Shown here piece by piece: positions 3,955 to 33,064 of a stretch of DNA of 64,000 nucleotides (its first letter is position 1; every line of letters begins with the position of its first letter). Origin of the DNA: Ignavibacteriales bacterium (GTDB lineage: Bacteria > Bacteroidota > Ignavibacteria > Ignavibacteriales > Ignavibacteriaceae); the NCBI GenBank assembly GCA_015709675.1, contig CP054182.1:2583448-2647447 (forward strand). The letters run 5' to 3'. Below the pieces are notes generated by a model. The model saw nothing but the letters and a program-made list of their open reading frames with translations, made no database searches and had not been told where the DNA came from. Made by a program: the position numbers and the translations under genes.

Positions 3955-3968
3955 GGAGCGGTATCAAG

Positions 3969-5327: not shown

Positions 5328-5349
5328 CACAAGATTTGTGAGTTAAACT

Positions 5350-7047: not shown

Positions 7048-7048
7048 A

Positions 7049-7285
7049 ATGATAACACCAGAATTCAAAGCTTCAATTTTAAAGGAATTACACCTTGATG
7101 ATTATGATATCAAGGATGAAACTCTTGCAAACCAGATTCCCGGATGGGATTCCATTAATCACATTAATGTGATTTCTGCAATTGAGAAGGACTTCAATGT
7201 TCGTTTTAAAAGTATAGAAATACTGAAGTGTAAAAACATTGGCGATCTGCAAAATCTGCTCACTTCAAAACTTTCGAAAAAATAA
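7049..7285 (+). CDS. Acyl carrier protein, DltC-like
   Basis: 78 residues with a four-helix carrier protein pattern. The phosphopantetheine attachment site is Ser35 in GWDSINHI, followed by an acidic helix II (VISAIEKDFNVRF). The WDSINHIN form resembles DltC and other dedicated carriers more than the housekeeping AcpP (DSLD). It begins 1 nt after the acyl-AMP ligase stop and is followed 21 nt later by the MBOAT gene, so the three are almost surely translationally coupled. Inferred role: carry the activated acyl group to the membrane acyltransferase. Confidence 0.9.
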   Translation: MITPEFKASILKELHLDDYDIKDETLANQIPGWDSINHINVISAIEKDFNVRFKSIEILKCKNIGDLQNLLTSKLSKK

Positions 7286-7306
7286 ACGGATATATGCAGG
7301 TACTTC

Positions 7307-8797
7307 GTGTTCATTGACATAAATAAAGTTTCCGTATTATTCAAGTATGATCAGTATGATCCGCTGCTGTTTGCTTCATCCTTTTTTCTGTTTCTATTCC
7401 TGGGTCTGCTTTTAATTCTGTCGGTAATCAGAGACAGAAAAATTCAGACTTTTATTCTGATAGCTTTCTCCGTTTTCTTTTATTATAAAGCATCAGGAGA
7501 TTTGCTGGGCCTGCTGATTGCGGCAGGAATCGCGAATTATTTCATCGGAAAAGGAATTTACCGGACGGAAGGCCAGGGTGGCAAGCGTGCTTTATTGCTG
7601 CTGGGTGTATTAGTAAATCTCGGTGTGCTCGTTTACTTTAAATACACAAATTTCCTGATCGAGATTTACAACTCCGCGATGAATGGATCCATTGAGGCAT
7701 GGGATATCATACAGCCGCTGGGTATTTCATTTTATATTTTTAAGGCACTCAGCTATCTTTTTGATATTTATCTGGAGATGCATGAACCGGAAGAAAGCTT
7801 TTTTGATTTCTTTTTGTACCTCTCCTTTTTTCCGGCAGTTTTATCCGGACCGATTGACCGGGCTGGTGATTTCCTTACGCAAATAAAAAATCCTCTTCCT
7901 TTTACGAATGCTACCATTGCCAAGGCAGTTTTTCTGATTTCAATGGGTCTGCTTAAGAAAAATCTGATTGCAGATTATATCAGCATAAATTTTGTGGAAA
8001 GAGTCTTTGACGAGCCGGCGAGGTTCACCGGAGTTGAAAATCTTCTAGCTGTTTACGGATATACTCTTCAGATTTACTGCGATTTTTCAGGATATACCGA
8101 TATGGCGATAGGGATCGGTATGCTCATGGGCTTCAAGATGATGGATAACTTTAATTATCCTTACAAAGCCGTGAGTGTAACTGATTTCTGGAGAAGATGG
8201 CACCTTTCACTTTCTGCCTGGCTGCAGAATTATTTATTTAAGCCTATTCAGATCGGTCTGCGTTCCTTTAAAATCTGGGGGAATGCTGCTGCAATTCTGA
8301 TTACTTTTACGCTTTGCGGACTTTGGCATGGTGCCAGTTACAATTTTATTATCTGGGGTCTTCTTCATGCATTCTTTATGGTTTTTTCCCTTTTTACTAA
8401 GAATATCAGAGAGAGTATTGCATCGTTCTTAAGAATAAAAGACACACGGTTTCATAAGTTCCTGAAGGTTTTTATCACATTCCACCTTATTGCATTTGCC
8501 TGGATATTTTTCAGAGCATCATCCTTTGAGAAGGCTGAGACCGTTTTGAAACAGATTGCAACTTTTTTTCAGCCGGAAGTATTCCCTCAGTTTGTTGATG
8601 CATTTTTTCCTGTCTTTATCCTTATGTGCATCGGATATATAATACATTTTCTTCCATCCCGTCTGGAAAATGTTCTGCAAACATTTCTTGAGAAAATTAC
8701 ACTTCCCGGGCAGGCGGTTGTACTGGCCATTGCGATTTGGATTTCAGCTCAGGCCCGCTTCGCTGATCTTCAGCCATTTATATATTTTCAGTTCTGA
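7307..8797 (+). CDS. MBOAT-family membrane O-acyltransferase (AlgI/DltB-like)
   Basis: 496 residues with about ten to twelve hydrophobic helices. MBOAT features are the PLGISFYIFKALSYLFDIY stretch, DFSGYTDMAIGIG (around residue 260), FWRRWH (295-299) and LCGLWHGASYNFIIWGLLH, in which His341 corresponds to the catalytic His of AlgI and DltB. These proteins move an acyl group from a cytoplasmic donor to an acceptor on the far side of the membrane. With a carrier protein directly upstream the donor is probably acyl-ACP rather than acetyl-CoA, as in DltB. The chosen start is GTG at 7307, since no in-frame ATG lies near the first helix. This start is uncertain by a few codons. Confidence 0.9.
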   Translation: MFIDINKVSVLFKYDQYDPLLFASSFFLFLFLGLLLILSVIRDRKIQTFILIAFSVFFYYKASGDLLGLLIAAGIANYFIGKGIYRTEGQGGKRALLLLGVLVNLGVLVYFKYTNFLIEIYNSAMNGSIEAWDIIQPLGISFYIFKALSYLFDIYLEMHEPEESFFDFFLYLSFFPAVLSGPIDRAGDFLTQIKNPLPFTNATIAKAVFLISMGLLKKNLIADYISINFVERVFDEPARFTGVENLLAVYGYTLQIYCDFSGYTDMAIGIGMLMGFKMMDNFNYPYKAVSVTDFWRRWHLSLSAWLQNYLFKPIQIGLRSFKIWGNAAAILITFTLCGLWHGASYNFIIWGLLHAFFMVFSLFTKNIRESIASFLRIKDTRFHKFLKVFITFHLIAFAWIFFRASSFEKAETVLKQIATFFQPEVFPQFVDAFFPVFILMCIGYIIHFLPSRLENVLQTFLEKITLPGQAVVLAIAIWISAQARFADLQPFIYFQF

Positions 8798-8800
8798 TTT

Positions 8801-9985
8801 ATGAAAACACTTCTTCTCATTTTTTTGTGCAGTATTATGTACGCAGATTCAACCAAAGTGCTGGAGATTATTTCCAGCGTTAAAAAGAACCACGCTCCTG
8901 ACAAAAGGACTGCAATATTTACGGTAGATGCGGATTTCACTAAAAGCACTCCGCTTCTTTCGGGTGAAACAAACATTCCGGATGCACTCGAAGAACTCCG
9001 GTCTAAACTTAAAGATGCAAATATAGCTTCAGATTTTGCGATTGAAGTTCTGCCCCAAAAGAACCTGGGTGAAAATACCATGGCTGTTGTCTGTATATCA
9101 GTGGCTAATCACAGAACAGACCCGAAACATTCGGCAGAAATGGCCACACAATCATTAATGGGCACTGTTGTAAAAGTATGGAAAAAAAGAGGTGAGTGGT
9201 ATCTGGTTCAGACTCCGGATAATTATCTCGGATGGGTTGATGATGATGGCATCCAATTGATGAATCAGAGTCAGATCAGAGACTGGCTTGCTTCTGAAAG
9301 AGTTATAGTTACGGTTCCTTATGCACTGCTGAGAAGTGATGCTTCTGAAAAGAGTCCGGTTATTTCAGATTTAACCGCAGGCAATTTGCTGAGAAAAATC
9401 GGAATGAAGGGAGATTACTATCATCTCCGGACTCCTGACGGAAGGGAAGGCTATCTTTCAGTCAGCAATTCTGCTTCATTCACTGATTGGGTAAACGGAA
9501 CTGAACTGAATGGTGAAAATATTCTTAATTCGGCAGCGGAATTTATGGGTTATCCGTATCTCTGGGGCGGAACTTCAACCAAAGGAGTAGATTGCAGCGG
9601 ATTCACTAAATCCGTTTATTTCATGAACGGACTGATTACGCCCCGCGACGCTTCACAGCAGGTTTATTCAGGCATACTGGTTGATACGAAAGATGGTTTC
9701 TCGAAACTTGAACCCGGGGATCTGCTCTTCTTTGGCTTTAAGGAAACGGATACCACAAGAGAAAGAATAACTCATGTTGGCATCTATATCGGGAACGATG
9801 AATTTATTCACTCAAGCGGAAAAGTTAAAATTAACAGTCTGAATAAAACAAAACCCAACTTCAGTCCTTTCAGATTCAATACGTTTATAAGGGCCAAAAG
9901 ATTTTTTATCAATCCTGAAGCAAACGGACTTACTTTCATTAAAAATAGCCCGGCTTATTTTCTGAAGGAGAATCTGCCGCAATGA
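8801..9985 (+). CDS. NlpC/P60 peptidase with SH3 domains (muropeptide endopeptidase)
   Basis: 394 residues with a signal peptide (1-15). Residues ~75-225 hold two bacterial SH3-like modules (GTVVKVWKKRGEWYLVQTPDNYLGWV and PYALLRSDASEKSPVI...). The NlpC/P60 domain (~235-370) has catalytic Cys265 in GVDCSGFT, His325 in THVGIYIG and the polar His337 in EFIHSSG. The architecture matches YkfC-type gamma-D-glutamyl-diamino-acid peptidases, which release L-Ala-D-Glu from peptidoglycan peptides. The following gene, overlapping by 4 nt, encodes the matching L-Ala-D/L-Glu epimerase, which supports that role. It starts 3 nt after the MBOAT stop and may belong to the same transcript. Confidence 0.9.
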   Translation: MKTLLLIFLCSIMYADSTKVLEIISSVKKNHAPDKRTAIFTVDADFTKSTPLLSGETNIPDALEELRSKLKDANIASDFAIEVLPQKNLGENTMAVVCISVANHRTDPKHSAEMATQSLMGTVVKVWKKRGEWYLVQTPDNYLGWVDDDGIQLMNQSQIRDWLASERVIVTVPYALLRSDASEKSPVISDLTAGNLLRKIGMKGDYYHLRTPDGREGYLSVSNSASFTDWVNGTELNGENILNSAAEFMGYPYLWGGTSTKGVDCSGFTKSVYFMNGLITPRDASQQVYSGILVDTKDGFSKLEPGDLLFFGFKETDTTRERITHVGIYIGNDEFIHSSGKVKINSLNKTKPNFSPFRFNTFIRAKRFFINPEANGLTFIKNSPAYFLKENLPQ

Positions 9986-15594: not shown

Positions 15595-15611
15595 CGTCTC
15601 ATATAGAGACA
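15595..15611. promoter_or_regulatory. Candidate activator site 1 (TGTCTCA-N3-TGAGACA type)
   Basis: CGTCTCA-TAT-AGAGACA matches the perfect palindrome found at 21123-21139 with two outer mismatches. It lies 88 bp (centre to -24) before the sigma-54-like element at 15690 and just after the GH9 stop. A simple mRNA hairpin is an alternative reading. Confidence 0.5.
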
Positions 15612-15624
15612 ATAAAAATTTAAG

Positions 15625-15641
15625 AATCTCAAAATAAGACA
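15625..15641. promoter_or_regulatory. Candidate activator site 2 (TGTCTCA-N3-TGAGACA type)
   Basis: AATCTCA-AAA-TAAGACA followed by ATTG. The core CTCAAAAT and the trailing ACAATTG are identical to the site at 21123-21143. Its centre is 30 bp from site 1, about three helical turns, as expected for tandem enhancer sites. Confidence 0.5.
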
Positions 15642-15689
15642 ATTGCAATGTTTTTATCTTGCTTTATGAGCGTTAATCGAATATGATTT

Positions 15690-15705
15690 TGGTATGGTTT
15701 TTGTG
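15690..15705 (+). promoter_or_regulatory. Candidate sigma-54 promoter (-24/-12)
   Basis: TGGTATGGTTTTTGTG fits TGGCACG-N4-TTGCW with the GG/G(C) spacing kept and C-to-T changes at both C positions of the core. The same variant (TGGTAyG-N4-TTTGTG) recurs at 21211. A start about 12 bp downstream would fall almost on the ATG at 15718, implying a nearly leaderless mRNA, which weakens or makes unusual this call. Confidence 0.42.
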
Positions 15706-15717
15706 TGATACGGTATT

Positions 15718-16980
15718 ATGACTAAAAAAAGAATAAATTTATTAAAAACTGGTTTGAGTATTGTTGATGAAAACTGGGGAGGTTTTTATCGTGGCGGTAC
15801 CTACTTACTGATTGGGCCCCGTAAATCGGGGAGGACTCTTATGGGTCTTCAGTATGCCATGGAGGGGGCCAAAAATAAAGAGGTTTGCCTCTATTTCACC
15901 AATATGCGGCCAAAAGATCTGATGATTCATGCCGCCTCCATAGACCTTGATTTACAGACTCTGATGAATCAGAATCTGATTATAGTTGTCCGGGTATCAC
16001 CACCTGCGGAGGTATACAATGCACCTAATCCGGATGACTTTCTGGTGGAATATCTTAATGATATTGTAACTGTCGTCAATCAGTATCATCCTGACCGGCT
16101 GATATTTGATGAACTGACACCATTTGTAGGATTTGAAAATCTGGGATTATTACAGCAATCATATTTAAGCATAATTGAGAGCATTGAAGAGAAAAACGTA
16201 ACAAGTTTTTTTGTACTTGCCGAGCCGGCCACTTCTTTTGCGCAAATGATCGTTGATACCTGTGCACAATACTCAACCGCAATTGTCTATCTCCAGAAAG
16301 AAGCAGATGCCGATACGATTGCTCACGGCGGAAAGTGTACAATTACTCCGAATGTCGGACATACTGAAGGACAATTTACGCAGGGTTTCACCATTGAACC
16401 TTATAAAGGAGTAGTGTTTCGCGATGGCAGTTCTGATTCAGCAGGAATGAGTTCTTATGACCAGTATCCCGGCGGAGGGAAGGGTTATGATCAGCCGGCC
16501 GTTACTCAGGCACCGAGCGCAAACGGAAATTCCAAATACCGTCCGCTTTCAAATGTTGATATGGTCACTGATAAAATGACATTTTCTAACCTTTATGATC
16601 TCAGTGAATTCACACTTATCCTTAATAATCAAATTGCTCTCTACAAGAGCACCGGGCAGGCATTTACCCTGATTTCAATGAAACTTGATGTAAATGCAGA
16701 GCGTCAGAAAATTCTGACGATGAGCCAGCTTCAGAATGCGGTCAGGCTATCACTTGATAAGAAGGAAAAAATCTGCGTAGTTGATGATAAAATACTCATC
16801 CTGATCGGCCGGAGTGATGACAAGGCGCTCAATGTTCTTGTAAGCAAAATAAAATCTAACTTACCGAATAACGATCCACAATATTTAAACCTCGTGATGC
16901 AGTATCTTTTTGCATTTACTTATGAAATCAACGACCGTGTTGAAAATGCTGAAAGTATCCTAAAAGAGCTTCTTGAATAG
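15718..16980 (+). CDS. KaiC-like RecA-fold protein with degenerate GGDEF-like C-terminus
   Basis: 420 residues, no signal peptide, so cytoplasmic. Residues 1-230 follow the KaiC domain pattern (TGLSIVDENWGGFYRGGTYLLIG, then LQYAMEGAKNKEVCLYFT). The Walker A reads GPRKSGRT, with Arg39 where Lys is normal, and the acidic pair after the second strand is missing. Walker B-like DRLIFDELT is kept. ATPase activity is thus doubtful; nucleotide binding is possible. After a Gly/Pro/Gln-rich linker (~235-275), residues ~285-420 have the strand-helix order of a GGDEF domain (FTLILNNQIALYKSTGQAFTLISMKLD...ICVVDDKILILIGR) but no GGDEF motif. It heads the operon with the TPR-barrel exporter, 12 nt apart, and I infer a regulatory role in polysaccharide export. 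The C-terminal assignment is by eye. Confidence 0.72.
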   Translation: MTKKRINLLKTGLSIVDENWGGFYRGGTYLLIGPRKSGRTLMGLQYAMEGAKNKEVCLYFTNMRPKDLMIHAASIDLDLQTLMNQNLIIVVRVSPPAEVYNAPNPDDFLVEYLNDIVTVVNQYHPDRLIFDELTPFVGFENLGLLQQSYLSIIESIEEKNVTSFFVLAEPATSFAQMIVDTCAQYSTAIVYLQKEADADTIAHGGKCTITPNVGHTEGQFTQGFTIEPYKGVVFRDGSSDSAGMSSYDQYPGGGKGYDQPAVTQAPSANGNSKYRPLSNVDMVTDKMTFSNLYDLSEFTLILNNQIALYKSTGQAFTLISMKLDVNAERQKILTMSQLQNAVRLSLDKKEKICVVDDKILILIGRSDDKALNVLVSKIKSNLPNNDPQYLNLVMQYLFAFTYEINDRVENAESILKELLE

Positions 16981-16992
16981 GAGTTTCCGGTC

Positions 16993-19854
16993 ATGAGAGG
17001 GCACAATTTATTTTTCTTCGTTCTGCTACTGAGCGTTTCAATATTTGCGCAGTCACCTGACTTCTTCAAAAAAGAAGGTCAGAATCTGATGAAAATCGGC
17101 AAATATGGTGAGGCGATTGAGCAGCTTAATAAGTATATCTCAGCAAGACCGAATAACGCTGACGGATTTTTTCTCCGTGCGCAGTGTTATGAAGCCCGGG
17201 GGCAGCTTGAATATGCAGTGTTTGATTATCGTGTTGCAATACGTATTGCTCCTAATGATAAGGAGATCAGAAGAGCATCCGATCTTGCCACAAATAAGTG
17301 GTATGCAATACTGGAAGACAAAATTGCAGGTCATAAGCGCGAAATAGCCATGGATCCTTCCATTCCTCTTAATTATCTTGAGATTGCCGAGTGTTACAAG
17401 CATATGCAGAAATGGTCTGATGCTGAAACTTGGTATGAAGCCTTCATGAAAAAACAGGAGGCAAATGCTGATGAAATTCTCAGATATACAGAGGTTCTGA
17501 TTAAGTTAAGAAGTTTTGAAAAAGGGGAGAGAGTTTCCAGAGCGTATAACGCTAAGTATCCGAAAGATATAAGACTGTGGAGCAGAAACGGCTGGTTTAA
17601 TGTGTGGCTGGGAAGATATAAACCTGCAGCAGAGTCATTTAAGAAAGCATTAGAGATTCGTCCTTTCTTTAAGGAAGCTCTGGAAGGACTTGAAATCTGC
17701 CAGAGTCAGGCGCCTTATATATTTACCTATTATGATACGGTAGGCCTCAGGCAGGCAGATCAGAAACCAAAGCAGGAAGAATATATCATCGACCGGTATT
17801 ACCGTCTGCTGAAGAATAATCCGGACGATGATGAAACCAGATTTGCTTTAGTACTTGAGCTAAAAAAAGTTGACCGCCTGGAAGAGGTTTTTCAGCAGCT
17901 GCAGCTTCTGGCTGATGAATACTCAGGTACTGAACGGTTTGATGAGTTGTGGACTGATGTAACAAATTACCGGGATTCTTTATACGCTAAAAGGATTGAG
18001 GAGATGAGCCAGGTTTTTGAGGCAAATCCCGGTGATACAACTGCTGCAATGATGCTTGCTGAATCGTATTTCCGATTGTCTGATTTTGATTCTGCAATAG
18101 AAGTTTATCGGAAACACCTCGAGGCAAATCCGAACACGAACGATAATATCCGGTTTAATTATGCCAAATATTTAGCATATAATCAGCAGTTTGAGCCGGC
18201 TATCGAACAAATGAATATATTGCTCGGGAAGCGGCCTGATGATCTGGATTATCAGCTGGTACGAGCTCAGATTGCCGTATGGACAACTCAGGATCTTGAA
18301 ATGGCAAAGGGGTATCTGAATAACATTCTTAGTAAGGATCCGAATAATCTTCAGGCAATTATAGCACTGACTACCATTTCTGTTAAAGAAAGAGATTTTG
18401 ATAAAGCACTGGAGTTTCTCAATCTGGCTAAAACACTTGATCCCAAAAGCAAGGAAGTTGAAGCGATTCAGAACTATTATGACTCCAATCTGGAACTTGA
18501 AGAGGACAGAAAGAATTTTGAGATTCTCGTTGAAGCAAGAAATCTTGCGGTAGACCAGCGGTGTGAGGAGTCTCTGCTTAAGTACGAAGAGTATTTTTCA
18601 AAAATCAGCAATCCATCCCGGTTTGAACAGATTGAATACGCGGACGTAAATATCTGTGCAGGAAATTTTGACGAAGCAATCAGTATTTATAATCGTCTGC
18701 TTGAAAATGAATATGATTATGATATATCGCTGCAGCGGGCTAAGGTGTATCTCTGGGGCGGAGATTCCCTTACGGCATTAAGCGAGCTGAAGAGACTGGT
18801 TGAAGAAGATACCTCAAGTTTTGAGTCACGTTTTTATCTGGCTGAAACGTATGAAAGACTTCAGGAGTATGATGAAGCCCAGGATATGTATTACAAACTT
18901 CTTGAAAGTACTGAAGATACCGCACGGGTCAGACTTATTAATCTTCGCATTGGTTGGCTGCCAAAGGGGACAAGCCTGTTTTCAAACATTCCGTTATTCA
19001 TCAGAATTTCACCACAGTTAAATTATTTTGGTGATAATCAGGGAATGAGTTTTGTAACTGCCGGAGGTAATGTTGAAATTGGTCTTCTGAGTTTTCTGTC
19101 TCTTGGAATGACCTTTACACGTTCAACTCTTGATTCCAATATCCTTAGCAACGTTTTTACAACGTTTAAGTGGAATTTATACATTTATCCTGCACCTAAA
19201 ATGGTCATCAGCGCGGGAATGGGCAACCTTTCTTATCTTAATCAGATTCCGGTGCAGAGAAGAAAACCCGTCTATGATATCGGATACCGTTATATTGATG
19301 ATGATTATTTTACATTTGGCCTTAGTTACGAAGCAACCGATGCAGTAATGATACTGTTTTCGAGCAAACTGCTTTATTACAATCTGCACAGTGAAATATA
19401 TAAATTTGAGTCCACGTACCAGCCTAACGATCTGGTTAAACTTACTGGAAGTTTTAATTATATAACGCTGGCTGACGGAAATGCAGGAAACAATGTACTT
19501 TTCAGAGTCGGAAGATACTTAGAAAAAGATATTATGGCCGGTTATGAGTATCAGTATGCCTCATATAACCGCGCGTCAACCTTATATTATTCTCCGATAG
19601 GATTTGAAGCTCATGTGGCCTGGGCGGACTGGCTTTTACGCCCCAGACCTGATACAAGAATTACTCTTAGCGGCAAGGTTGGATATATCCCTGAAAGTGA
19701 TTCTTTCCTCAGGGAAATATCTGCTTTAGTTGAATATAAACCTTCTGATACATTTATTCTTTCTCTCAGAGGAACAACCGGCGGATCGTTCCGTTATGAT
19801 GCCGGTTACCGCTATTATTCAGCTTTCCTTTCTGCATTCTGGAGTTTCTGGTAA
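16993..19854 (+). CDS. TPR-rich outer-membrane beta-barrel protein, BcsC/PgaA-like exporter
   Basis: 953 residues. A signal peptide ends near Ala19-Gln20. Residues ~25-640 are TPR repeats (for example EAIEQLNKYISARPNNADGFFLRAQCYEARGQ and KALEFLNLAKTLDPKSKEVE). The last ~300 residues alternate hydrophobic and polar residues in beta strands and end in an aromatic residue (SAFWSFW), the signature of an outer-membrane barrel. This TPR-then-barrel layout is that of PgaA and BcsC, which export poly-GlcNAc and cellulose, and of YaiO-type proteins. With a GT2 synthase, a deacetylase-like protein and a GH9 enzyme nearby, polymer export is the best explanation. It lies 12 nt after the KaiC-like gene. 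Confidence 0.83.
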   Translation: MRGHNLFFFVLLLSVSIFAQSPDFFKKEGQNLMKIGKYGEAIEQLNKYISARPNNADGFFLRAQCYEARGQLEYAVFDYRVAIRIAPNDKEIRRASDLATNKWYAILEDKIAGHKREIAMDPSIPLNYLEIAECYKHMQKWSDAETWYEAFMKKQEANADEILRYTEVLIKLRSFEKGERVSRAYNAKYPKDIRLWSRNGWFNVWLGRYKPAAESFKKALEIRPFFKEALEGLEICQSQAPYIFTYYDTVGLRQADQKPKQEEYIIDRYYRLLKNNPDDDETRFALVLELKKVDRLEEVFQQLQLLADEYSGTERFDELWTDVTNYRDSLYAKRIEEMSQVFEANPGDTTAAMMLAESYFRLSDFDSAIEVYRKHLEANPNTNDNIRFNYAKYLAYNQQFEPAIEQMNILLGKRPDDLDYQLVRAQIAVWTTQDLEMAKGYLNNILSKDPNNLQAIIALTTISVKERDFDKALEFLNLAKTLDPKSKEVEAIQNYYDSNLELEEDRKNFEILVEARNLAVDQRCEESLLKYEEYFSKISNPSRFEQIEYADVNICAGNFDEAISIYNRLLENEYDYDISLQRAKVYLWGGDSLTALSELKRLVEEDTSSFESRFYLAETYERLQEYDEAQDMYYKLLESTEDTARVRLINLRIGWLPKGTSLFSNIPLFIRISPQLNYFGDNQGMSFVTAGGNVEIGLLSFLSLGMTFTRSTLDSNILSNVFTTFKWNLYIYPAPKMVISAGMGNLSYLNQIPVQRRKPVYDIGYRYIDDDYFTFGLSYEATDAVMILFSSKLLYYNLHSEIYKFESTYQPNDLVKLTGSFNYITLADGNAGNNVLFRVGRYLEKDIMAGYEYQYASYNRASTLYYSPIGFEAHVAWADWLLRPRPDTRITLSGKVGYIPESDSFLREISALVEYKPSDTFILSLRGTTGGSFRYDAGYRYYSAFLSAFWSFW

Positions 19855-19895
19855 GTTTCTCAAAAATTTCTTTTTATAAATCTAAACAGTGTGGT

Positions 19896-21122
19896 GTGTT
19901 ATTGAATAAGTTCAAGTATGTTCTGTCTCTTTGTTCTGTTTTAATCGTTTCATTTTTTGTATCCGGTTCCTTTTACGGATCAGTCCATACTCCTTCTGGA
20001 AATCCCTCAAAGGAGAAAGTATATCCGATAAAAGGAAATACCAGTCAGTTAAAATATTATTTTGATGCACTAAAAGATGCTAAAAATAAAAAAGTAAGAA
20101 TAGGCCATTGGGGAGACTCAATTATTCTTGGAGATATTCTTTCAGACAGTTTCAGACGGCTTCTGCAGAAACAATTCGGCGGAAATGGTGTGGGTTTTGT
20201 ATCGCTGGTTCCCGAAGATTCACCAATGCGGCTTTCGACTATAGTCACAAGCTCTGGTGACTGGATTGAAGCATCACTCTTCAAGAGAAATCCTGACAGA
20301 CTGCCTCTGGGTATTAATGCATCGGTCTTTACTACAAAATCGGAAAAAAGCTGGGTTTCCTATGATGTTGGTAAGTATAATAAATCAATCAGAAATTATA
20401 ATTCCATTCATCTGTTTTACGCAAACGGAAATTCCTCGGGTGAAGTTAAATTTATTACCAGCAATGGTTTTACCAAAACAGTAAAACTTGAATCCGGATC
20501 TGGCATCCGGAAGGTCTCTGTTGATTTTCCGACACCGGCGACAAGTGTTAAACTCGAATTCAGTTCTTGTAAGAACATATATTTTTACGGTGTATCCATT
20601 GAAAATTCCCATGGCGTTTATGTAGATAATTTTCCTATAAAGGGAAATAATGGAATAGGGCTGCAGGATTTATCCTCCGAAGTCCTCAGTGATTTTAAGA
20701 AACTTCAGGATTATAAACTCCTCATCCTGAATTTCGGAGTAAACGTTCTTTCGCCTGAGCATAAAGAATATGACTGGTACATGACCAGAATGGAAAAAGT
20801 CATAGCTCATATTCAAAATTCATTTCCCGGCACATCCATATTAATTATTAGTACTGGTGACAAAGGAGTAAAAAAGGGGGGTAAGTTTGTTTCTGAACCT
20901 CAGATCAGAAATCTCCTGAAAGCACAGGAGGAACTTGCAACCAGAACCGGAGTTGCTTTCTGGAATCTCTTTGAGGCAATGGGGGGCGAAAATGCAATCG
21001 TGGACTGGGTGAACAGCAGGCCTGCCCTTGCATACAAGGATTATTGTCATTTTACACCTGAAGGTGGTGACAAAGTAGCTGATATGCTGAATGAGGCACT
21101 TATGAATTTAATGAACAAGTAA
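19896..21122 (+). CDS. Secreted SGNH protein, paralogue of the 3969-5327 product
   Basis: 408 residues with an N-terminal hydrophobic export signal or anchor (to about residue 28). GDS (Ser75, in IGHWGDSIILGD), NFGVN and DYCHF (Asp382, His385) make up the SGNH core. A beta-rich insert between the first two blocks (SWVSYDVGKYNKSIRNYNSIHLFYANG...) matches the insert in the protein encoded at 3969-5327, as do GVYVDNFPxxGNxGI and FWNLxEAMGGExA. The two are paralogues. Position between the TPR-barrel exporter and the GT2 synthase suggests acyl transfer to, or removal from, the exported glycan. Start GTG at 19896 or TTG at 19902; both are weak, 41-47 nt after the exporter gene. Confidence 0.78.
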   Translation: MLLNKFKYVLSLCSVLIVSFFVSGSFYGSVHTPSGNPSKEKVYPIKGNTSQLKYYFDALKDAKNKKVRIGHWGDSIILGDILSDSFRRLLQKQFGGNGVGFVSLVPEDSPMRLSTIVTSSGDWIEASLFKRNPDRLPLGINASVFTTKSEKSWVSYDVGKYNKSIRNYNSIHLFYANGNSSGEVKFITSNGFTKTVKLESGSGIRKVSVDFPTPATSVKLEFSSCKNIYFYGVSIENSHGVYVDNFPIKGNNGIGLQDLSSEVLSDFKKLQDYKLLILNFGVNVLSPEHKEYDWYMTRMEKVIAHIQNSFPGTSILIISTGDKGVKKGGKFVSEPQIRNLLKAQEELATRTGVAFWNLFEAMGGENAIVDWVNSRPALAYKDYCHFTPEGGDKVADMLNEALMNLMNK

Positions 21123-21139
21123 TGTCTCAAAATGAGACA
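21123..21139. promoter_or_regulatory. Candidate activator site 3, perfect TGTCTCA-N3-TGAGACA palindrome
   Basis: A perfect 7-3-7 palindrome directly after the stop codon of the SGNH gene, centred 81 bp before the -24 of the sigma-54-like element at 21211. The CTCAAAAT core and the flanking ACAATTG are shared with the site at 15625. It could instead be a small 3' hairpin of the upstream mRNA. Confidence 0.52.
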
Positions 21140-21185
21140 ATTGTTGAGTAAGTAAACAAAGCTAATTATCAAAATCCTTTGTTTT

Positions 21186-21233
21186 GTGCAAATTTCGTAT
21201 CATATTTAATTGGTACGAAATTTGTGCTTTTTT
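21186..21233 (+). terminator. Hairpin plus T tract, possible terminator of the KaiC-like/exporter/SGNH unit
   Basis: A 14-bp stem pairs 21186-21199 with 21214-21227 (two G-T pairs) around a 14-nt loop, and six T residues follow (21228-21233). This fits an intrinsic terminator. Its right arm is the same sequence as the sigma-54-like element, so one of the two readings may be coincidental. Confidence 0.5.
21211..21226 (+). promoter_or_regulatory. Candidate sigma-54 promoter (-24/-12) of the GT2 operon
   Basis: TGGTACGAAATTTGTG fits TGGCACG-N4-TTGCW except C-to-T at core positions 4 and 15, the same two substitutions seen at 15690. A start near 21237 leaves about 20 nt of leader before the ATG at 21258. 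It overlaps the right arm of a hairpin that also resembles a terminator. Confidence 0.48.
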
Positions 21234-21257: not shown

Positions 21258-22697
21258 ATGCAGGCAAGAGTCCAACAAAAACCGCAGAATGAAGAAGAGA
21301 AATCGCCTAAAATCAGGCGGACTTCTATCACTGTTCAGAACACCACAGCCGGTGAAGGTCCTAAGGAAGACAAGAAGCAGATTATTATCAGGAGAATGAT
21401 ATACTCTGGTACGATCTCCGCTATCATGCTTGCGATTATCATCTATACGCTTCCGATGACGGTTCTAAGCGTAAGTGCGCTTTTTGAGTATGCTACACTT
21501 GTATCGCTCTTTCTGTTCCTCCTGGTGCTGCTTTTCCGTTATTTTGCTGTACTGGTGATGGCTTATATTTATATCAGTCAATACACGTTTAACAAGAATA
21601 CCGGATTTTATCCGTTTGTTTCAATCATTGTTCCTGTTTATAACGAAGGGGTCGTTTTAAAGGATTCAATAGATTCGCTGCTTCACCTGGACTATTCCAA
21701 TTATGAAATTATCATCGTAAATGATGGTTCAACCGATAATACTTACGAAGTAGGGAAAACACTTGTTGGTTTTCATAAAGGCCGTTATTCTGATATTAAA
21801 GTTTCCATGATCTCAAAACCCAACGGCGGCAAAGCCAGGGCATTGAACGCGGGAATTGGTTACTCCAAGGCTGAAATCGTACTCTGCATGGATGGTGATT
21901 CACAGTTATCTGAGGATTCCATTCGTATGGCAGTCCGGCACTTTGTTGATCCTGAAATTGGAGCAGTTGCCGGAAACGTAAAAGTTCTGAACAGAAGAAA
22001 ACTGTTCACCGATCTTCAGGCACTTGAGTACATTGAAGGTCTTAATTTTGCCCGGGCAGCCCAGAGTTTTCTGAAACTGGTAAATATTATTCCCGGTCCT
22101 ATCGGTCTTTTCCGCAGAAAAGCGATTGAAGATGCTGGTTATTATTCGAGCGATACTTATGCTGAAGATGCTGATCTAACTCTGAAGATACTTGCCAATA
22201 ACTGGAAAATCTATTACGAACCGCGCGCCATTTCTTATACCGAGGCACCAGAAACTTTGCATCAGTTGTTAAAGCAAAGATACCGCTGGACCCGGGGAAT
22301 TCTGCAGGCAATCAGGAAACATAAAGTACTTCTGGTAAATCCGACTATCAACTTCGGTGATACTTTTGTCCTTTGGTCAATGTTCTATGAAGCGCTCATC
22401 TGGCCGGCAATGAACATTATCTCCAATGTGTTCTTTATTTTTGTGGCTTTGGCTTACGGCTTTTCCAGTCTTATCTTTTTCTGGTGGGCAGGCCTGGCTA
22501 TACTGGATTTAACAACTGCACTTTATTGTGTAGCGGTGGAGAATGAAGAAATCCGGCTGGTGCCTTATGCTCTGGTTTACAGGATGTTTTTTATTCTTAC
22601 TATTGATATTTGTAAAGCAATGTCAACCGTTGAAGAGTTCCTGGGATTTGATATGAATTGGGGGAAACTTGAACGTGTTGGTTTAGTAAAAAGTTAA
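21258..22697 (+). CDS. Processive GT2 glycosyltransferase (PgaC/BcsA-like polysaccharide synthase)
   Basis: 479 residues. Two membrane helices (~50-70 and ~78-108) precede the catalytic domain, and about three helices follow (~365-460). The GT2 motifs are complete: NDGSTDNT (Asp156), MDGDS (Asp212, Asp214), YAEDADL (Asp304) and QRYRW (Gln340, Arg343, Trp344). The QxxRW motif marks processive synthases of the cellulose, hyaluronan and poly-GlcNAc group. It should make a linear polysaccharide from a UDP-sugar at the inner membrane and push it outward. The sugar cannot be told from sequence alone. It lacks a PilZ domain, so c-di-GMP control would need another protein. The N-terminal 40 residues are charged and cytoplasmic. 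Confidence 0.92.
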   Translation: MQARVQQKPQNEEEKSPKIRRTSITVQNTTAGEGPKEDKKQIIIRRMIYSGTISAIMLAIIIYTLPMTVLSVSALFEYATLVSLFLFLLVLLFRYFAVLVMAYIYISQYTFNKNTGFYPFVSIIVPVYNEGVVLKDSIDSLLHLDYSNYEIIIVNDGSTDNTYEVGKTLVGFHKGRYSDIKVSMISKPNGGKARALNAGIGYSKAEIVLCMDGDSQLSEDSIRMAVRHFVDPEIGAVAGNVKVLNRRKLFTDLQALEYIEGLNFARAAQSFLKLVNIIPGPIGLFRRKAIEDAGYYSSDTYAEDADLTLKILANNWKIYYEPRAISYTEAPETLHQLLKQRYRWTRGILQAIRKHKVLLVNPTINFGDTFVLWSMFYEALIWPAMNIISNVFFIFVALAYGFSSLIFFWWAGLAILDLTTALYCVAVENEEIRLVPYALVYRMFFILTIDICKAMSTVEEFLGFDMNWGKLERVGLVKS

Positions 22698-22712: not shown

Positions 22713-23207
22713 ATGGAATTAATACCGATTCTCGCAACAATCATACTTATGGCGACCATAAGTACTTTCTTTCTTGCTATTGGAGCATACGTGCTATTTA
22801 AAATAAGAGAAAGAAGAGGAGTGCTTGCCAAACTGGAAGCTCCTTCAACCGTACAAGCAGAATTGGTAACACCGGAAGCTGTTCAGGAACAGATGCAGGC
22901 ACCAGAAATGCAGCGCGCTCCGGCACAGCCGGTTCGTCCGCCGGTATTTGCACGGCCCAATGCTCCTTCTTATAAACCGGCACCAGAACCAATAATTGTT
23001 CAAAGAAGGAATCCCCAGCAGATAGTTACTCCTCAGCCGGTTCAGCAGCCAAGATATACTCCCGCACCTGCAGCAGCCCGTCAGGTTGCTGCCAGACCAG
23101 GACCGGCACAGAGTGCACCTGTTGAACAAAAATTTAAAAAATATACTGCCGAAGGATATGCTGCTAAGGCAGAAGAAAAGAAACAAAGTCCGGCCAAATG
23201 GAGATAG
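22713..23207 (+). CDS. Single-span membrane protein with Pro/Ala/Gln-rich tail
   Basis: 164 residues of unknown function. One N-terminal membrane helix (~5-28, MELIPILATIILMATISTFFLAIGAYVLF) is followed by a basic stretch (KIRERRG) and a low-complexity tail rich in Pro, Ala and Gln up to ~145, ending in Lys-rich sequence. By the positive-inside rule the tail is cytoplasmic. It lies 15 nt after the GT2 gene and overlaps the next gene by 10 nt, so it is coupled to both. A small membrane subunit of the synthase complex (compare PgaD) is plausible, but there is no sequence match I can name. Confidence 0.7.
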   Translation: MELIPILATIILMATISTFFLAIGAYVLFKIRERRGVLAKLEAPSTVQAELVTPEAVQEQMQAPEMQRAPAQPVRPPVFARPNAPSYKPAPEPIIVQRRNPQQIVTPQPVQQPRYTPAPAAARQVAARPGPAQSAPVEQKFKKYTAEGYAAKAEEKKQSPAKWR

Positions 23208-25174
23208 TAAATCCTAATCCAGGTAAGCATCCTCAGGAGTCAGAAGACCAGGGTAAGAAAACCCGGGCTGAAGAGACTGAAGCAAAAAAGAAGAAAGAAA
23301 AAGGTGTCGGCTTTTTCCCTCTGATGGGATTTGGCCTCTTTTTTATCGTTACAGGCCTGTATATATATATGTATATCATGCAGGGTGTTTTTGGCAATGA
23401 CGACTACATGGAGTACCTGACCCCGGCCGGTTTTATGGGACTGTTAAAAGGGGAAGAGAAAATTAAAATCGGAATTCTCTATTCCCAGTATACCGAAAAC
23501 CTCCTGCCTCCAGGTAATACTTCACTTAATGATAACATTGTCATCTGGAAACGGTTTTTGTCACAGTATAAACTTACTTATACCGTGCTTGCAGATTCAG
23601 ATATAGAAAAAGGACATCATAAGGAATATTCTCTCCTTATTTTGCCCAGTTCGAAAGCGTTAAGTGATCTTCAGTACCGGAATCTGAAATCATATATAGA
23701 CCGAGGCGGTTCCATTTTTGCGACCGCTGGTACTGCATCCTTCACTGAAAAAGCAAAATGGCGCGGCTGGATATTCTTTAATGAAATATTCGGAGTGAAA
23801 TTCCGTGCTGAAATTCCGCATGATATTGTAACCCGAATCCATACACTACGAGGCGGGCTGCCAATAACATCAAATATACCAGCCGGATATCCTCTTAAAA
23901 TTGCCACATGGGATCGTCCTATTGCAGTTGAAGTGCTTGAACCGCGTGCGGAACAGGCGAGTTTTTGGTATAACTACCGTTTTGATGAAGGCCTCGTAAG
24001 AGAAGGACTTACAAAAAGCGCAGGAATAGTCTTTGGAACCTACGGTAAGGGACGCTTTGTATGGATGGGTTTTGATGTAAACTCAGTAATTGGACGGCAG
24101 GAAGACTACGTTAATTTTGATAAACTTTTTAATAACTCAGTCAACTGGCTTCTCCGGCTTCCGATAGCTTATGTGAAAGACTGGCCAGGGGATTATAAAG
24201 CTGCTGCTCTGATTACTCCGACTGTCGTTGAGCAGCCCGGAAATATTGCCAATCTTTTTCCCATATTAAGTTCTGAAAATGTAAAGGCAAACTTTTTTGT
24301 TGATCCTTCGGTAGCTGAATCCTATCCTGATCTCATAAGAAGGATGGCAGGGTACGGAAATATCGGAGCGATAGGGGATATAGGTTTTATGTTATCAATT
24401 AACGATACCATAAATAAACTGAATGACCTGCCAACACAGTTTAATAAGGTAAAGAGTGCAAGAGATAAACTCTCAGCGATATCAAATACAAAAGTTTATA
24501 GTTTCCTTCCGGCAAACGGATTGCTGAATGATGACACCTATATGGCGCTTATCAGAAGCGGTTATAAAGTTGTTCTAACCGATTCTCTTACAGACCGTTC
24601 AGTTCCGCGTGTTGTTATTAAAGGTGACAGCGCAGTTATTGCAATCACCAAGACCGCCAGAGATGATTATGAAGTAATCAGGGATTATGGTCTGTATCAG
24701 CAGGAATTCCAGGTTTACACATACAGAGAAGATATTGAACGGGTTCTTTTTGAAAGGGGTTTGTATATCTTTAAGATGCACACAGAATATCAGTGTCTTC
24801 CTGAAAATGTCTGGGTAGCAAGAAATGTTATCCGGATGTTAAAGGAAAGACAATTCTGGATGACTGATATTAATAAACTGTATGACTGGTGGGTGCAAAG
24901 GAACAGAATTGAAATCAGAGTTATGCCCCGGAGTTCATCCAGAGTAGCGGTTGTTGTTACAAACCCCGGCAGTGATCTGATAAAAGAGTTTACTCTTTCG
25001 GTTGAACTTGAAAGTAAAACAGATAATTTTAAGATTTCATCAGAAATTATCGGTACCAAGATTCCGAAGTTCAATTTTAACCCCGCGTCAAAGAAGCTCG
25101 ATCTTTTTATCAAAGATTTGAAAGCGGGACAGTCAAGAAGTTATTTAGTAGATTTTGAACGCGTTGATGTCTGA
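23198..25174 (+). CDS. Membrane-anchored protein with ThuA/GATase-like and inactive deacetylase-like domains
   Basis: 658 residues. Residues 1-40 are charged and Lys/Glu-rich; one membrane helix spans ~44-66. A region at ~88-320 resembles ThuA or class-I amidotransferase-like flavodoxin folds (KIGILYSQY..., YSLLILPSSKALSDLQYRNLKSYIDRGGSIFATAG). Residues ~325-565 follow the NodB polysaccharide deacetylase layout (DYKAAALITPTVVE..., NVKANFFVDPSVAESYPDLIRRM, GLLNDDTYMALIRSGYKVVLTD). The catalytic motifs are not there: the TFDD strand reads LITPTV and the HxxxH region reads YGNIGAIGD. A beta-rich C-terminal domain ends the protein. It takes the place of PgaB/PelA-type periplasmic modifiers and may bind rather than deacetylate the glycan. 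It overlaps both neighbours. Confidence 0.72.
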   Translation: MEIVNPNPGKHPQESEDQGKKTRAEETEAKKKKEKGVGFFPLMGFGLFFIVTGLYIYMYIMQGVFGNDDYMEYLTPAGFMGLLKGEEKIKIGILYSQYTENLLPPGNTSLNDNIVIWKRFLSQYKLTYTVLADSDIEKGHHKEYSLLILPSSKALSDLQYRNLKSYIDRGGSIFATAGTASFTEKAKWRGWIFFNEIFGVKFRAEIPHDIVTRIHTLRGGLPITSNIPAGYPLKIATWDRPIAVEVLEPRAEQASFWYNYRFDEGLVREGLTKSAGIVFGTYGKGRFVWMGFDVNSVIGRQEDYVNFDKLFNNSVNWLLRLPIAYVKDWPGDYKAAALITPTVVEQPGNIANLFPILSSENVKANFFVDPSVAESYPDLIRRMAGYGNIGAIGDIGFMLSINDTINKLNDLPTQFNKVKSARDKLSAISNTKVYSFLPANGLLNDDTYMALIRSGYKVVLTDSLTDRSVPRVVIKGDSAVIAITKTARDDYEVIRDYGLYQQEFQVYTYREDIERVLFERGLYIFKMHTEYQCLPENVWVARNVIRMLKERQFWMTDINKLYDWWVQRNRIEIRVMPRSSSRVAVVVTNPGSDLIKEFTLSVELESKTDNFKISSEIIGTKIPKFNFNPASKKLDLFIKDLKAGQSRSYLVDFERVDV

Positions 25175-26474
25175 AATGTATCGTAAAAAATTAATGAGAT
25201 TATTGGCAGCAGCGGTGCTGTTATCAGGAGTATTTTTAAACTACAACTGTGCAGATAGTGTAACGGGCTCGGATAAACTTCCGCCGAATGTAATACTCTA
25301 TAAACCCTCATCAAATGATACACTTCTTGTTCAGCGCTATGAAGTTATTTATGATGCAAGCGATGATCAGAAAATTGCATCGGTCGATCTCTATATTAAT
25401 GATCAGTTCAGAGAGAGATTTGCACCACCGCCTAACGCAGCAAGACCAGCGGTGTACTGGAATATGGACACTACTTTGGCCGGAAATACCCATACAGTTC
25501 ATCTGATAGTAACTGACGCAAGCGGAAACAGCGTAAAAAGTGAAGTAAAAACCAATATCTTCGTAACTTTAACAAAGGATCCTCCGTCTGCTCCGTTCGA
25601 TCTGCAGTTAAAAAATCTTACGAGCACCCTTGTAAATATTTCCTGGAAAGATACGTCAAGATTTTCCAAGGGATATGAACTGTGGAAAAAAACCGGGTTC
25701 TCAGGGAATTATGTTAAATACAGAACATTTCCTGCCGGGAGTTTTAATACAAATGATGTATTGTCAGATCCTGAAGGGGAATACTATTACAAGATACGTT
25801 CGTTTAATGAATATGGTTACTCTATTTTCGGAGAAGAAGTAAATACCTCCGGAGCAGGCGGTTCCATAAATGTTTCGCCTCCGACAAAACTTACAGTAAA
25901 AGTATTTGGAACCCAAAAGACCGTGTTGACATGGCAGGATAATGCAAATAATGAAAATTACTTTGGTATAGAGCGTTCAAGGGAATCTGGAGAATTTGAA
26001 CAGGTTGGAGTAGTGCCTCTGAATTCTACAGGTTTTACTGATTCTGCAAGGGGTCTTGCAGCCAATGTAACCTATACATACAGAATAAAAGCATATTCAA
26101 CAACAGATTCATCCTGGTCTGGAGGCAGGACGGTTACTATGTCTTCCTTTAACATTAACCGGCCAAGCGGTCTCACTGCTCAGCAGGTTTCACCAACCAG
26201 AATAAATCTGACATGGGTTGATAACAGTAATTTTGAAATCCGGACATTTGTTGAACGTAAGGAAGGTCCTGCAGGTCAGTTCGTGGTCGTAGGCAGTTCA
26301 GGCACCGATATATCAGCATATAGTGATACTACATTTCCTTCAGGAACATTATTATATTACAGGCTTCAGGCATTTGACGGCAACGGTTACTCTGAGTATT
26401 CAAATGAATTAAACATCATTTCCTCAGGTAAACCCGTTATTCTTCAGGATAAAAAACAATTAAAGACGAGATAA
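25167..26474 (+). CDS. Fibronectin type III repeat surface protein, probable lipoprotein
   Basis: The preferred start is ATG at 25167 (overlapping the previous stop) or ATG at 25176; a longer TTG reading from 25155 only adds residues before the signal. The export signal LMRLLAAAVLLSGVFLNYNC ends in a Cys, but the lipobox (NYNC) is not canonical, so lipidation is uncertain. An Ig-like domain (PPNVILYKPSSNDTLLVQRYEV) is followed by three fibronectin type III domains (PPSAPFDLQL, PPTKLTVKVF and RPSGLTAQQV starts, each with a TWxDN- or SWKD-type strand). It probably binds glycan or partner proteins outside the inner membrane. There is no T9SS sorting domain. Confidence 0.78.
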   Translation: MSEMYRKKLMRLLAAAVLLSGVFLNYNCADSVTGSDKLPPNVILYKPSSNDTLLVQRYEVIYDASDDQKIASVDLYINDQFRERFAPPPNAARPAVYWNMDTTLAGNTHTVHLIVTDASGNSVKSEVKTNIFVTLTKDPPSAPFDLQLKNLTSTLVNISWKDTSRFSKGYELWKKTGFSGNYVKYRTFPAGSFNTNDVLSDPEGEYYYKIRSFNEYGYSIFGEEVNTSGAGGSINVSPPTKLTVKVFGTQKTVLTWQDNANNENYFGIERSRESGEFEQVGVVPLNSTGFTDSARGLAANVTYTYRIKAYSTTDSSWSGGRTVTMSSFNINRPSGLTAQQVSPTRINLTWVDNSNFEIRTFVERKEGPAGQFVVVGSSGTDISAYSDTTFPSGTLLYYRLQAFDGNGYSEYSNELNIISSGKPVILQDKKQLKTR

Positions 26475-26475
26475 C

Positions 26476-29400
26476 GTGGCACCATCAAAGGATATAAGAC
26501 TTCCTTCTGAGATAATTATACCTCTCATTGAAGGTCAGCCGTTCCCGGGAATCATTATTAACAGGAATGGCAACATACTTGCTGCGAATAAACCGGCAAG
26601 ATCGTTTTTCTCAATGCAGAGTGACGATCTTACTTTGTTTGAATTATTCGATGCTGAAGACAGGGAAAAAATCACCCGGATAATTGAGTCGGCATTAAAA
26701 TTCAATGGTGAGACAGTAGAGTATGCCGAGGTAACCCTGCAGGGGAAAAAAGTATCTCTTGAACTCTCAATCAATGCAGTTAAGGATGAGACCGGAAGCA
26801 AATATCTTTTTGTGAAAGTGAACCTTCCTTTTCAGGGAGGAACCGCGAACAGAGGGAAAGCCGGTTTCGGTCTGACCATTTCATCTGAAGATCTTTCCGG
26901 TCTGATCAGAAATAAAAAAATTGTCTCGGTCATCGAAAGCGTTAAATCATCGTTCCCGTTTACCTTTTTAGGTAAAAGTAAAATACAGAATGAGATTAAT
27001 AAACTAGCTGAGCTGTTTTGGATAAAAGACAGTAATAATAATTTTCTGCTTGTTAATAACCGGTTTTCTTCACTGTTAGGACTGAAATCCGCACAGTTGG
27101 AAGGCCGTTCTGAAAGAAATTTTCTTCCCCAGTATTATCTGGATTTATATAAGACAATAGATCAGTACGTAAAGGAGACACTCAGTTATTTTATTCTCGA
27201 AGGGATTCCGCTTAAAGGTTTTGCATCCTTAAAAAATTATCAGTCAATTGAGTTTCCTCTTGTTGATGCAGAAAACCGGGTACAGGCAATTATAGGAATC
27301 GGTCAGAAGAGGGAGAGCGGCACTGAAGGCAGTTCGGAGAGTGATGAGTCAGGCAATCTTCAGCTTTTCAGACATCTTCCAAAGCCGTATTGCATTATTG
27401 ATGAGGCCGGATCCATAAAAACTATTTCATCTTCATTCGAAAGTTTATTCTCCGTTGAAGAATCATTCATCACCGGAAGACAATATTCGGATGTGTTTCC
27501 TGAACAGCTATCCCATGCAATACGCGGTTTTCTGAGCGCAGGCAGGCAGTCACAGGAAATTAATCTTTCACTTACTCAGCAAAATGGGGAACAGACACAA
27601 TTTCATGTTACTCTGACAAAAGTAATAAACGAAGTATCCGCTTCTTTCAGAATTATCGTCGGAATTGAAAGGACAGCAGACTTTGATAATCTTGAAGAAC
27701 TGCTTAAAAGCAGGGGAAAAATGTATGATATTCTTATTCAGAGCAACCCGGAACCGATTTATGTTTACAGCACAGAGAATCTCCGTTTCATAGAAGCTAA
27801 CCCTTCCGCCCTGGAATTATATGGGTATACCCGGGATGAATTCCTGCAGATGGATCTTACAGACTTATATACACCTGAGGATATACAGTCCCTACTTGAA
27901 TCAGGGCAGGGCAGTGCTCCCGTAAACCGGTTTAACGGACCGTATAAACACCGTAGAAAAGACGGGGAAACCTTACATATTGAGCTTTGTAAAACAACAT
28001 TTCTTTTTGAAGGTAAGGAAGCTCACTTTAATGTAGTCCGTGATGTGAGTGAAAAGCTAACTATTGAAAAGAAATTCACGGCATTCAGAAATGTTGTCGA
28101 AAACACGAGTGATATCATAATCGTTACGGATAATGTCGGCTTCATCAGAGAAGTGAATGCCTCAGTGATGGAAAATCTTGGTTATCGTCCCGCCGAACTT
28201 ATTGAATCAAGTTTTATTTCTCTGGCATCAGATGAACACAGAGGACTGATTAATACATCCGTGTTCTATTCCCAGACAGCAGTATCAGGCAGGATTTCTG
28301 TTGATCTGAAGAAAAAAGACGGTTCGGTAATCCCCGCGAATATAGCATTTATACCTGTGGAGGGTGAGAATAATCAGATTGAGTCCTTTAATCTGATAGT
28401 TTCCACAAAACAATCAGGCGGTGAAACTGTACGTGAAGTTGAAAAAGTTGTAATCAAGGAAGTTGTTAAAGAAGTAGAAAAAATTGTTCCTGGTCCTGCA
28501 GGTACTGATGTTCTCACCAGAAAAGGCGGACTGGATCCTGCCCAAATTGGTACAATTTTTCATGAAATCCTCACACCGATTAATGTGATACTCGGCTTTG
28601 TTCAGGAAATTAAGGAAAGCCTTGGTGCTCCGAACTCTGAGCAGCAGGAGGCAATGGACTATATATCCCAGAACCGGGATAATCTTCTTGACACGATGAA
28701 TACCATTGCGGAATATGCCAAACTGAATCTGGTGCCTGAAGAATCAATTTCTGAACTCAGAGCTACTCTGCTTCTTGAGGAGGTAGCGGAAGAACTTGAA
28801 AGTCTCACAGATTCACTGAAAAAGAGTCTGGTCTTTTCAAAAGTCTCTGCATCGCTCAGTTTTGAAGGATACCCGTCGCTTTATAAGAGTTTCATTGTTT
28901 CACTTGTAAAAATCTGCTTTAAGATTTCAGTTGAAGAGCAAATTTATATCTCCGCGCAGGCGGTTGATAACAACAGATTTGTGATTTCGCTAAAAGACAA
29001 TATCGGAAAAGTTTCAAGTGAATTACTCAATAATCTGGTTAATTTATTTAATCAGAATGATATTTCCTTCGTACGTTCCTTCAATGTTTCACGTTATGCA
29101 GCATTAGCAGTCAAAAAACTGGTTTCGATGCTCGGCGGAAAAGTTGAAATACTTGGCAAAGGTGGAAAACCATTTGAAGTTGGAATCATCTTCCCTTATA
29201 AAGCCGAGCCGATATTGCCTGAAACTGCAGAAGCAGAAGTCCGGCCGGAGGAACCTGTTCTCTCAGAAGAACATGAAGAAGAAAATGAGCCTCTTACTGT
29301 ACTTCAATCTCCTATGAGCGAGCCGGCTATTCAAACGCCATTTGCTGAAAGGCAAATGACCGCAGGATTTGAACGTCAGACTCCTGAAGTGCCTTATACA

Positions 29401-32912: not shown

Positions 32913-32931
32913 GGTTATAAATTATTATAAT

Positions 32932-32959
32932 GCCGGGCAAATTGCCCGGCTTTTTTTTT
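32932..32959 (+). terminator. Intrinsic terminator after the T9SS cargo gene
   Basis: GCCGGGCAA / TTGCCCGGC, a 9-bp GC-rich stem at 32932-32950 with a minimal loop, followed by nine T residues. Confidence 0.95.
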
Positions 32960-33064
32960 GCCCTTATACGCATCCGCCGGAAAGCAATTTCCTCCGCTTA
33001 TCAATAATCTGCTTCTCACAGTATGTGCATGCGTTATTTTGCAGTTCAAAAATATTCGAATACC

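Follow-up and report, generated by a model that had tools for sequence, protein, structure and literature searches.

The repeated palindromes and TGG...TTG elements of the polysaccharide locus described here are best explained, with a probability of about 0.83, as two sigma-54 control regions that would switch on two operons (operons 1 and 2) together with type IX-secreted adhesins for an extracellular matrix. The locus lies in a 64,000-nucleotide stretch of DNA (the window) from the genome of an Ignavibacteria-type bacterium, a single contig of 4.21 Mb. Judging from sequence, one activator and the sigma-54 polymerase very probably turn on the exopolysaccharide machine along with large exported adhesins, and the sites ahead of operon 1, at least, belong to a control region that Ignavibacteria share. 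A preliminary description of the window had proposed that one enhancer-binding protein and RpoN activate both transcription units, and this proposal is supported by a copy of rpoN and 13 enhancer-binding proteins in the genome, by promoter elements in 68/69 and 26/28 orthologous regions, by tandem dyads at fixed distances and by further targets of like kind. From these features we infer sigma-54 dependence, binding by one enhancer-binding protein, co-expression and a role in the matrix.

In the proposed mechanism, a dimeric Fis-type enhancer-binding protein would sit on tandem dyads (consensus TGTcTCA-N3-TGAgACA) spaced ~29 bp apart, or roughly three helical turns, and looping of the DNA would bring it to the RNA polymerase-sigma-54 that is bound to the -24/-12 element. 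A signal would then lead to ATP-driven opening and the start of transcription. Activators on tandem dyads, looping and ATP-driven opening are established sigma-54 biology. Operon 1 (KaiC-like ATPase, TPR exporter, SGNH protein) would be activated with operon 2 (PgaC-like synthase, small membrane protein, deacetylase, Ig protein, hybrid kinase), and type IX-secreted adhesins encoded elsewhere in the genome would be turned on alongside them to give an extracellular matrix. From the gene content, this would be an exopolysaccharide matrix with exported adhesins.

Sites and genes of the two operons

All three palindromes and both TGG...TTG elements of the preliminary description were confirmed (Table 1). 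The elements had been written there as TGGTAyG-N4-TTTGTG; the elements themselves stand, but three bases and not four precede TTTGTG. Counted to TTG, the form is TGGTAyG-N4-TTG, which gives GG-N10-G, as sigma-54 needs. This spacing is obligatory for sigma-54, while a C after the -12 G is usual but not absolute. Both window elements have GG and G separated by exactly 10 bases, and in both the next base is T instead of the C of the usual TTGC. The missing -12 C lowers the fit to the consensus, and the invariant GG and G are present, so that the elements are kept as sigma-54-like at the probability given above and not as proven. An ACAATTG flank, described earlier as shared by two of the dyads, is absent from the sister species and is therefore an apparent coincidence.

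Table 1. Control sites and genes of the locus (positions within the window)
Feature	Position	Strand	Details
GH9 gene	13935		5' of KaiC-like gene
Distal dyad CGTCTCATATAGAGACA	15595-15611	.	2 mismatches; centre 88 bp 5' of GG
Proximal dyad AATCTCAAAATAAGACA	15625-15641	.	3 mismatches; centre 58 bp 5' of GG
-24/-12 (sigma-54-like) element 1 TGGTATGGTTTTTGTG	15690-15705	+	Conserved in 68/69 orthologous upstream regions
KaiC-like ATPase domain protein, 420 aa	15718-16980	+	Pfam PF06745; first gene of operon 1
TPR protein, 953 aa	16993-19854	+	Probably outer-membrane export protein (PgaA/BcsC-like TPR part)
SGNH/GDSL hydrolase-like protein, 408 aa	19896-21122	+	PF13472
Perfect dyad TGTCTCAAAATGAGACA	21123-21139	.	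Adjoins stop codon of 19896 gene; centre 81 bp 5' of element 2 GG
Intrinsic-terminator-like hairpin	21186-21227	+	17-bp stem, 8-base loop, then T6 (21228-21233)
-24/-12 (sigma-54-like) element 2 TGGTACGAAATTTGTG	21211-21226	+	Element in 26/28 orthologous upstream regions
Membrane glycosyltransferase 2 (GT2), PgaC/IcaA-like polysaccharide synthase	21258-22697	+	TIGR03937, 207.7 bits
Small membrane protein	22713-23207	+	
Polysaccharide deacetylase-like membrane protein	23198-25174	+	PF01522
Fibronectin III / Ig-domain protein	25155-26474	+	
PAS-rich hybrid histidine kinase, C-terminal receiver	26476-29943	+	End of operon 2

Transcription from promoters 1 and 2 is predicted to start near 15716 and 21237, respectively. 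The two dyads of promoter 1 lie 30 bp apart, and the position of the distal one (~87 bp from GG) is matched in most relatives. With element 1 in use, the leader of the KaiC-like mRNA would be only ~2 bases long, making it a leaderless message; the distance from element to start codon is nearly equal in the sister species (G001), and other genera have a leader of ~15-30 bases.

Like PgaABCD and cellulose-type synthase-dependent loci, the two operons encode a GT2 similar to PgaC/IcaA, a TPR export-like protein and a deacetylase. The TPR protein is probably an outer-membrane exporter, with a barrel predicted from its sequence. Unlike in PgaABCD, all of the proteins fall under the NCBIfam cut-offs, including the GT2, whose 207.7 bits against TIGR03937 lie below the 422.3 required of a PgaC synthase; the KaiC-like ATPase, the SGNH protein and the hybrid kinase are extra here. 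Genes for SGNH, AMP-binding, MBOAT acyltransferase and NlpC/P60 proteins further upstream, at 3289-9985, suggest acyl modification of the polysaccharide. At 31620-34288, two more genes encode proteins that have a type IX sorting tail (PF18962), and the full-arrangement scan found no dyad arrangement ahead of them.

Conservation and specificity of the dyad-promoter arrangement

Upstream DNA of the KaiC-like and GT2 orthologs was scored for the element and the dyads in 41 related genomes and in named genomes, the named relatives being Ignavibacteria that include Melioribacteraceae and Stygiobacter. Both orthologs are present in most of the 41 genomes; the KaiC-like gene has a strong match in 38, its own included, only a weak match in one (G018), and is missing in two (G002 and G024). 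The GG-N10-G element was found in 68/69 upstream regions of the KaiC-like gene, where nearly all copies lie between -28 and about -58 relative to the start codon. Of the GT2 regions, 26/28 have it, at a similar distance. GG and TTG are practically invariant at fixed spacing (GG in 68/68 scored KaiC elements), and shuffled sequence scores ~2.8-3.3 units below the real elements (sd 1.0). The base after the -12 G varies in the KaiC promoters (G 28, A 19, T 13, C 8; n=68), and loss of the -12 C may be a lineage trait of this RpoN.

The best dyad 5' of the -24 matches at 10.5 of 14 bases in the KaiC-gene regions and at 10.9 of 14 in the GT2 regions, against 8.0-8.1 in shuffled sequence (8.0 +/- 0.8 for the comparison with 10.5). 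Pairs of dyads are mostly spaced 28-31 bp apart, and in relatives the dyad centres concentrate ~58 and ~87 bp upstream of GG, compared with 58 and 88 bp in promoter 1 of the window.

The palindrome taken alone is within chance, and the arrangement of two dyads and a -24/-12 element at fixed distances is far beyond it. At up to 3 mismatches the window holds 5 matches to the palindrome against 2.8 expected, and a scan of the 4.21-Mb genome at up to 2 mismatches gave 10 against 15 for a reversed control, so that the enrichment which the preliminary description had looked to was not found for the palindrome by itself. The copy at 21123-21139 is the only perfect one in the genome. For the full arrangement, defined as an element plus dyads in both positions with a summed score of at least 17, a fair test is provided by a 1.30-Mb set of loci for which protein homology was the only criterion of choice, since a wider scan took in loci that had been fetched by the motif itself. 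In this set there were 78 occurrences against 0 in reversed sequence: 42 before KaiC-like genes, 34 before GT2 genes, one before the small membrane gene, and one without a resolved open reading frame, which lies near a contig end. Thus 77/78 precede KaiC-like or GT2 genes or the next operon gene. A pattern scan for a dyad, N41-71 and a -24/-12 element found 28 places in 21/41 genomes against 2 in reversed sequence. A looser scan of the relatives was noisy, with matches moderately above control and many within genes, and from it only those intergenic matches were kept for which the gene downstream could be read.

The hairpin at promoter 2 and alternative explanations

Element 2 is exactly the 3' arm of a hairpin, a feature overlooked in the preliminary description. 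The copy at promoter 2 in this genome is atypical, with this overlap and with a single dyad at 81 bp in place of the usual 58/87. The hairpin has a run of T directly after the stem-loop, as in intrinsic terminators (21186-21233). Rfam gave no match. In the sister species its core is letter-identical and a dyad lies 80 bp 5' of GG, with the intervening DNA drifted; in the other GT2 regions examined no such hairpin was found, and within this set it is confined to the genus of the window. As the predicted start at ~21237 lies past the hairpin, the hairpin can act only on operon 1 RNA. We read 21186-21233 as a terminator of operon 1 which, in this genus, overlaps a kept but altered sigma-54 promoter, and the working of promoter 2 in this genome is less certain than that of promoter 1. 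A second overlap of an activator site with terminator-like sequence is seen in a relative's GT2 upstream region (L062, in G007), where one dyad lies within an inverted repeat, AAAAAAATCC...GGATTTTTTTT.

It is also conceivable, if unlikely, that the sequence at 21211 is a rho-independent terminator only, with a -24/-12 look that arose by chance, and that operon 2 is reached by polymerase reading through out of operon 1 or has some other promoter. The 17-bp stem and T6, with a folding energy of -21.7 kcal/mol (z ~-7), form the strongest terminator-like site of an 18-kb scan, and the exact coincidence of the element with the 3' arm, the single dyad off the usual positions and the restriction of the hairpin to one genus in the examined set all agree with this; however, 26/28 orthologous GT2 regions carry the element at a similar distance, element and dyad are both kept in the sister species, the dyad is the sole perfect copy of the genome, and terminator and promoter functions can coexist. 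In an improbable reading confined to the perfect dyad, this palindrome would work in the operon 1 transcript, as a stem-loop at its 3' end, instead of binding a protein. It stands directly 3' of a stop codon, folds at -7.7 kcal/mol, and differs between the genus's two species by symmetric changes of its outer bases, but the dyads ahead of GT2 in relatives are imperfect, often paired and at a fixed distance from the -24, and genes unlinked to the locus also have this motif in front of them.

Two further explanations concern the sites as a whole. The dyads could be operators of some other regulator (a repressor or a sigma-70-type activator), and GG/TTG part of another promoter class such as the Bacteroidota TTTG/TAnnTTTG. 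The unconserved -12 C and the many elements that read TTTG speak for this, which is nonetheless highly improbable given that GG stands at a fixed distance from TTG in all 68 scored KaiC elements, that TAnnTTTG is absent from the column counts, and that dyads 58/87 bp upstream are in the range of an activator and rarely of a repressor. That everything is chance similarity in AT-rich spacers would agree with the chance-level counts of the single motif in window and genome, but is scarcely credible beside 78 arrangements against 0 and elements in 68/69 and 26/28 regions.

Candidate activators, remote targets and related regulons

Away from the locus, sites precede genes for PAS kinases and large secreted proteins as well as the small membrane gene; relatives of the small membrane gene at 22713 have a dyad and -24/-12 promoter of their own in other genomes. 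Each of the eight secreted targets scanned at full length terminates in a domain for type IX secretion sorting (TIGR04183, PF18962). In six, a choice-of-anchor A / pAdhesive_15 domain occurs together with DUF11, and five of these six have a thioester domain in addition; the other two carry DUF4082 and FN3 domains. Since the eight were picked because they had the motif and were evidently secreted, they illustrate what targets look like and not how common these are. One of the six is a third target in the host genome, at ~781.4 kb, a 755-aa choice-of-anchor A protein with a type IX tail; upstream are the dyads ATTTGATACA and AGTCTCAGTTTGAGACG and then TGGCACATCTTTTG, with the start codon 42 bp further.

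Sigma-54 has been argued to control the bacterial exterior generally (Francke et al. 2011, PMC3162934), and the Ignavibacteria case fits this view. In the PEP-CTERM-box regulon with PrsK/PrsR, a 17-nt activator motif, sometimes repeated, is followed by a spacer and a sigma-54 -24/-12 element ahead of genes for sorted surface proteins, which are linked with exopolysaccharide loci (Haft et al. 2006, PMC1569441). Activator motif, spacer, -24/-12 element and association with exopolysaccharide are alike here, whereas motif 1 of that regulon ends in TTTACA (PMC1569441) and the column counts here give TGTCTCA-N3-TGAGACA, and the eight scanned targets have type IX sorting tails and not PEP-CTERM. Membership in the PEP-CTERM-box/PrsR regulon was considered and not assigned, because both the activator motif and the sorting signal are different and none of the ten enhancer-binding proteins scanned reaches the PrsR cut-off. 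We read the Ignavibacteria regulon as a probable functional counterpart of the proteobacterial PEP-CTERM/PrsR regulon. The odds moderately favour the wider reading of an order-wide Ignavibacteria sigma-54 regulon which co-expresses a KaiC-led exopolysaccharide locus and type IX-secreted thioester/choice-of-anchor A adhesins, on the PEP-CTERM/PrsR plan but with an unrelated motif and sorting signal and with the -12 C lost. This suggests that sigma-54 came to couple sorted surface proteins to exopolysaccharide synthesis in two settings that differ in their export systems. In a different phylum, a sigma-54-linked effector also controls a biofilm exopolysaccharide in Burkholderia cenocepacia (BerB/RpoN; PMC5552954). 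Regulation in Ignavibacteria is almost undescribed: a full-text search within a collection of open-licence papers found none on sigma-54 or RpoN in this group, and the letters of the palindrome returned unrelated papers only. The defined motif, fixed geometry and target list make matrix formation in Ignavibacteria testable.

GlrR/QseF-type sigma-54 activators bind TGTC-N10-GACA. The outer TGTC...GACA is alike here, with a gap of 9 and conserved inner TCA/TGA, which offers a lead only. As the preliminary description had anticipated, rpoN and enhancer-binding regulators are both present. The single rpoN matches the RpoN DNA-binding domain at 1.1e-58 and has the RpoN-box-like ARRTIAKYREQ, and the 13 enhancer-binding proteins are strong matches to PF00158. 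An NCBIfam scan of ten of them (all except L013, L020 and L024) gave none above a specific cut-off, the best score for PrsR (TIGR02915) among these ten being 426.5 bits against a cut-off of 502.6. Five enhancer-binding proteins of the host genome are shared with two locus-bearing relatives, but all five also occur in G002 and four in G024, both of which lack the locus, so that this co-occurrence singles out no activator. A dyad-plus-promoter arrangement was not found near enhancer-binding genes in five genomes. Among the 13, an AtoC-like protein is encoded at about 3457982-3459334 (G000:C1). L015, an AtoC-like regulator that forms a pair with a PAS kinase in four genomes, keeps 34/48 and 29/47 residues of its DNA-binding end in two locus-bearing genomes compared with 21/48 in G002, and is about equally conserved among these genomes outside that end; this makes L015 a weak lead as candidate activator, from a single comparison that proves nothing.

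Among the sites away from the locus, a dyad and TTGGCGTGATTATTGC stand in the sister species (L301, G001:C71:26029) ahead of an operon of pilin-like small proteins, whose last gene product has a weak match to a type IX sorting domain. At another (L092, G015:C85:6142-6287), three to four dyads lie between two convergent genes with no obvious -24/-12 element, and possibly belong to an unannotated small gene or RNA.
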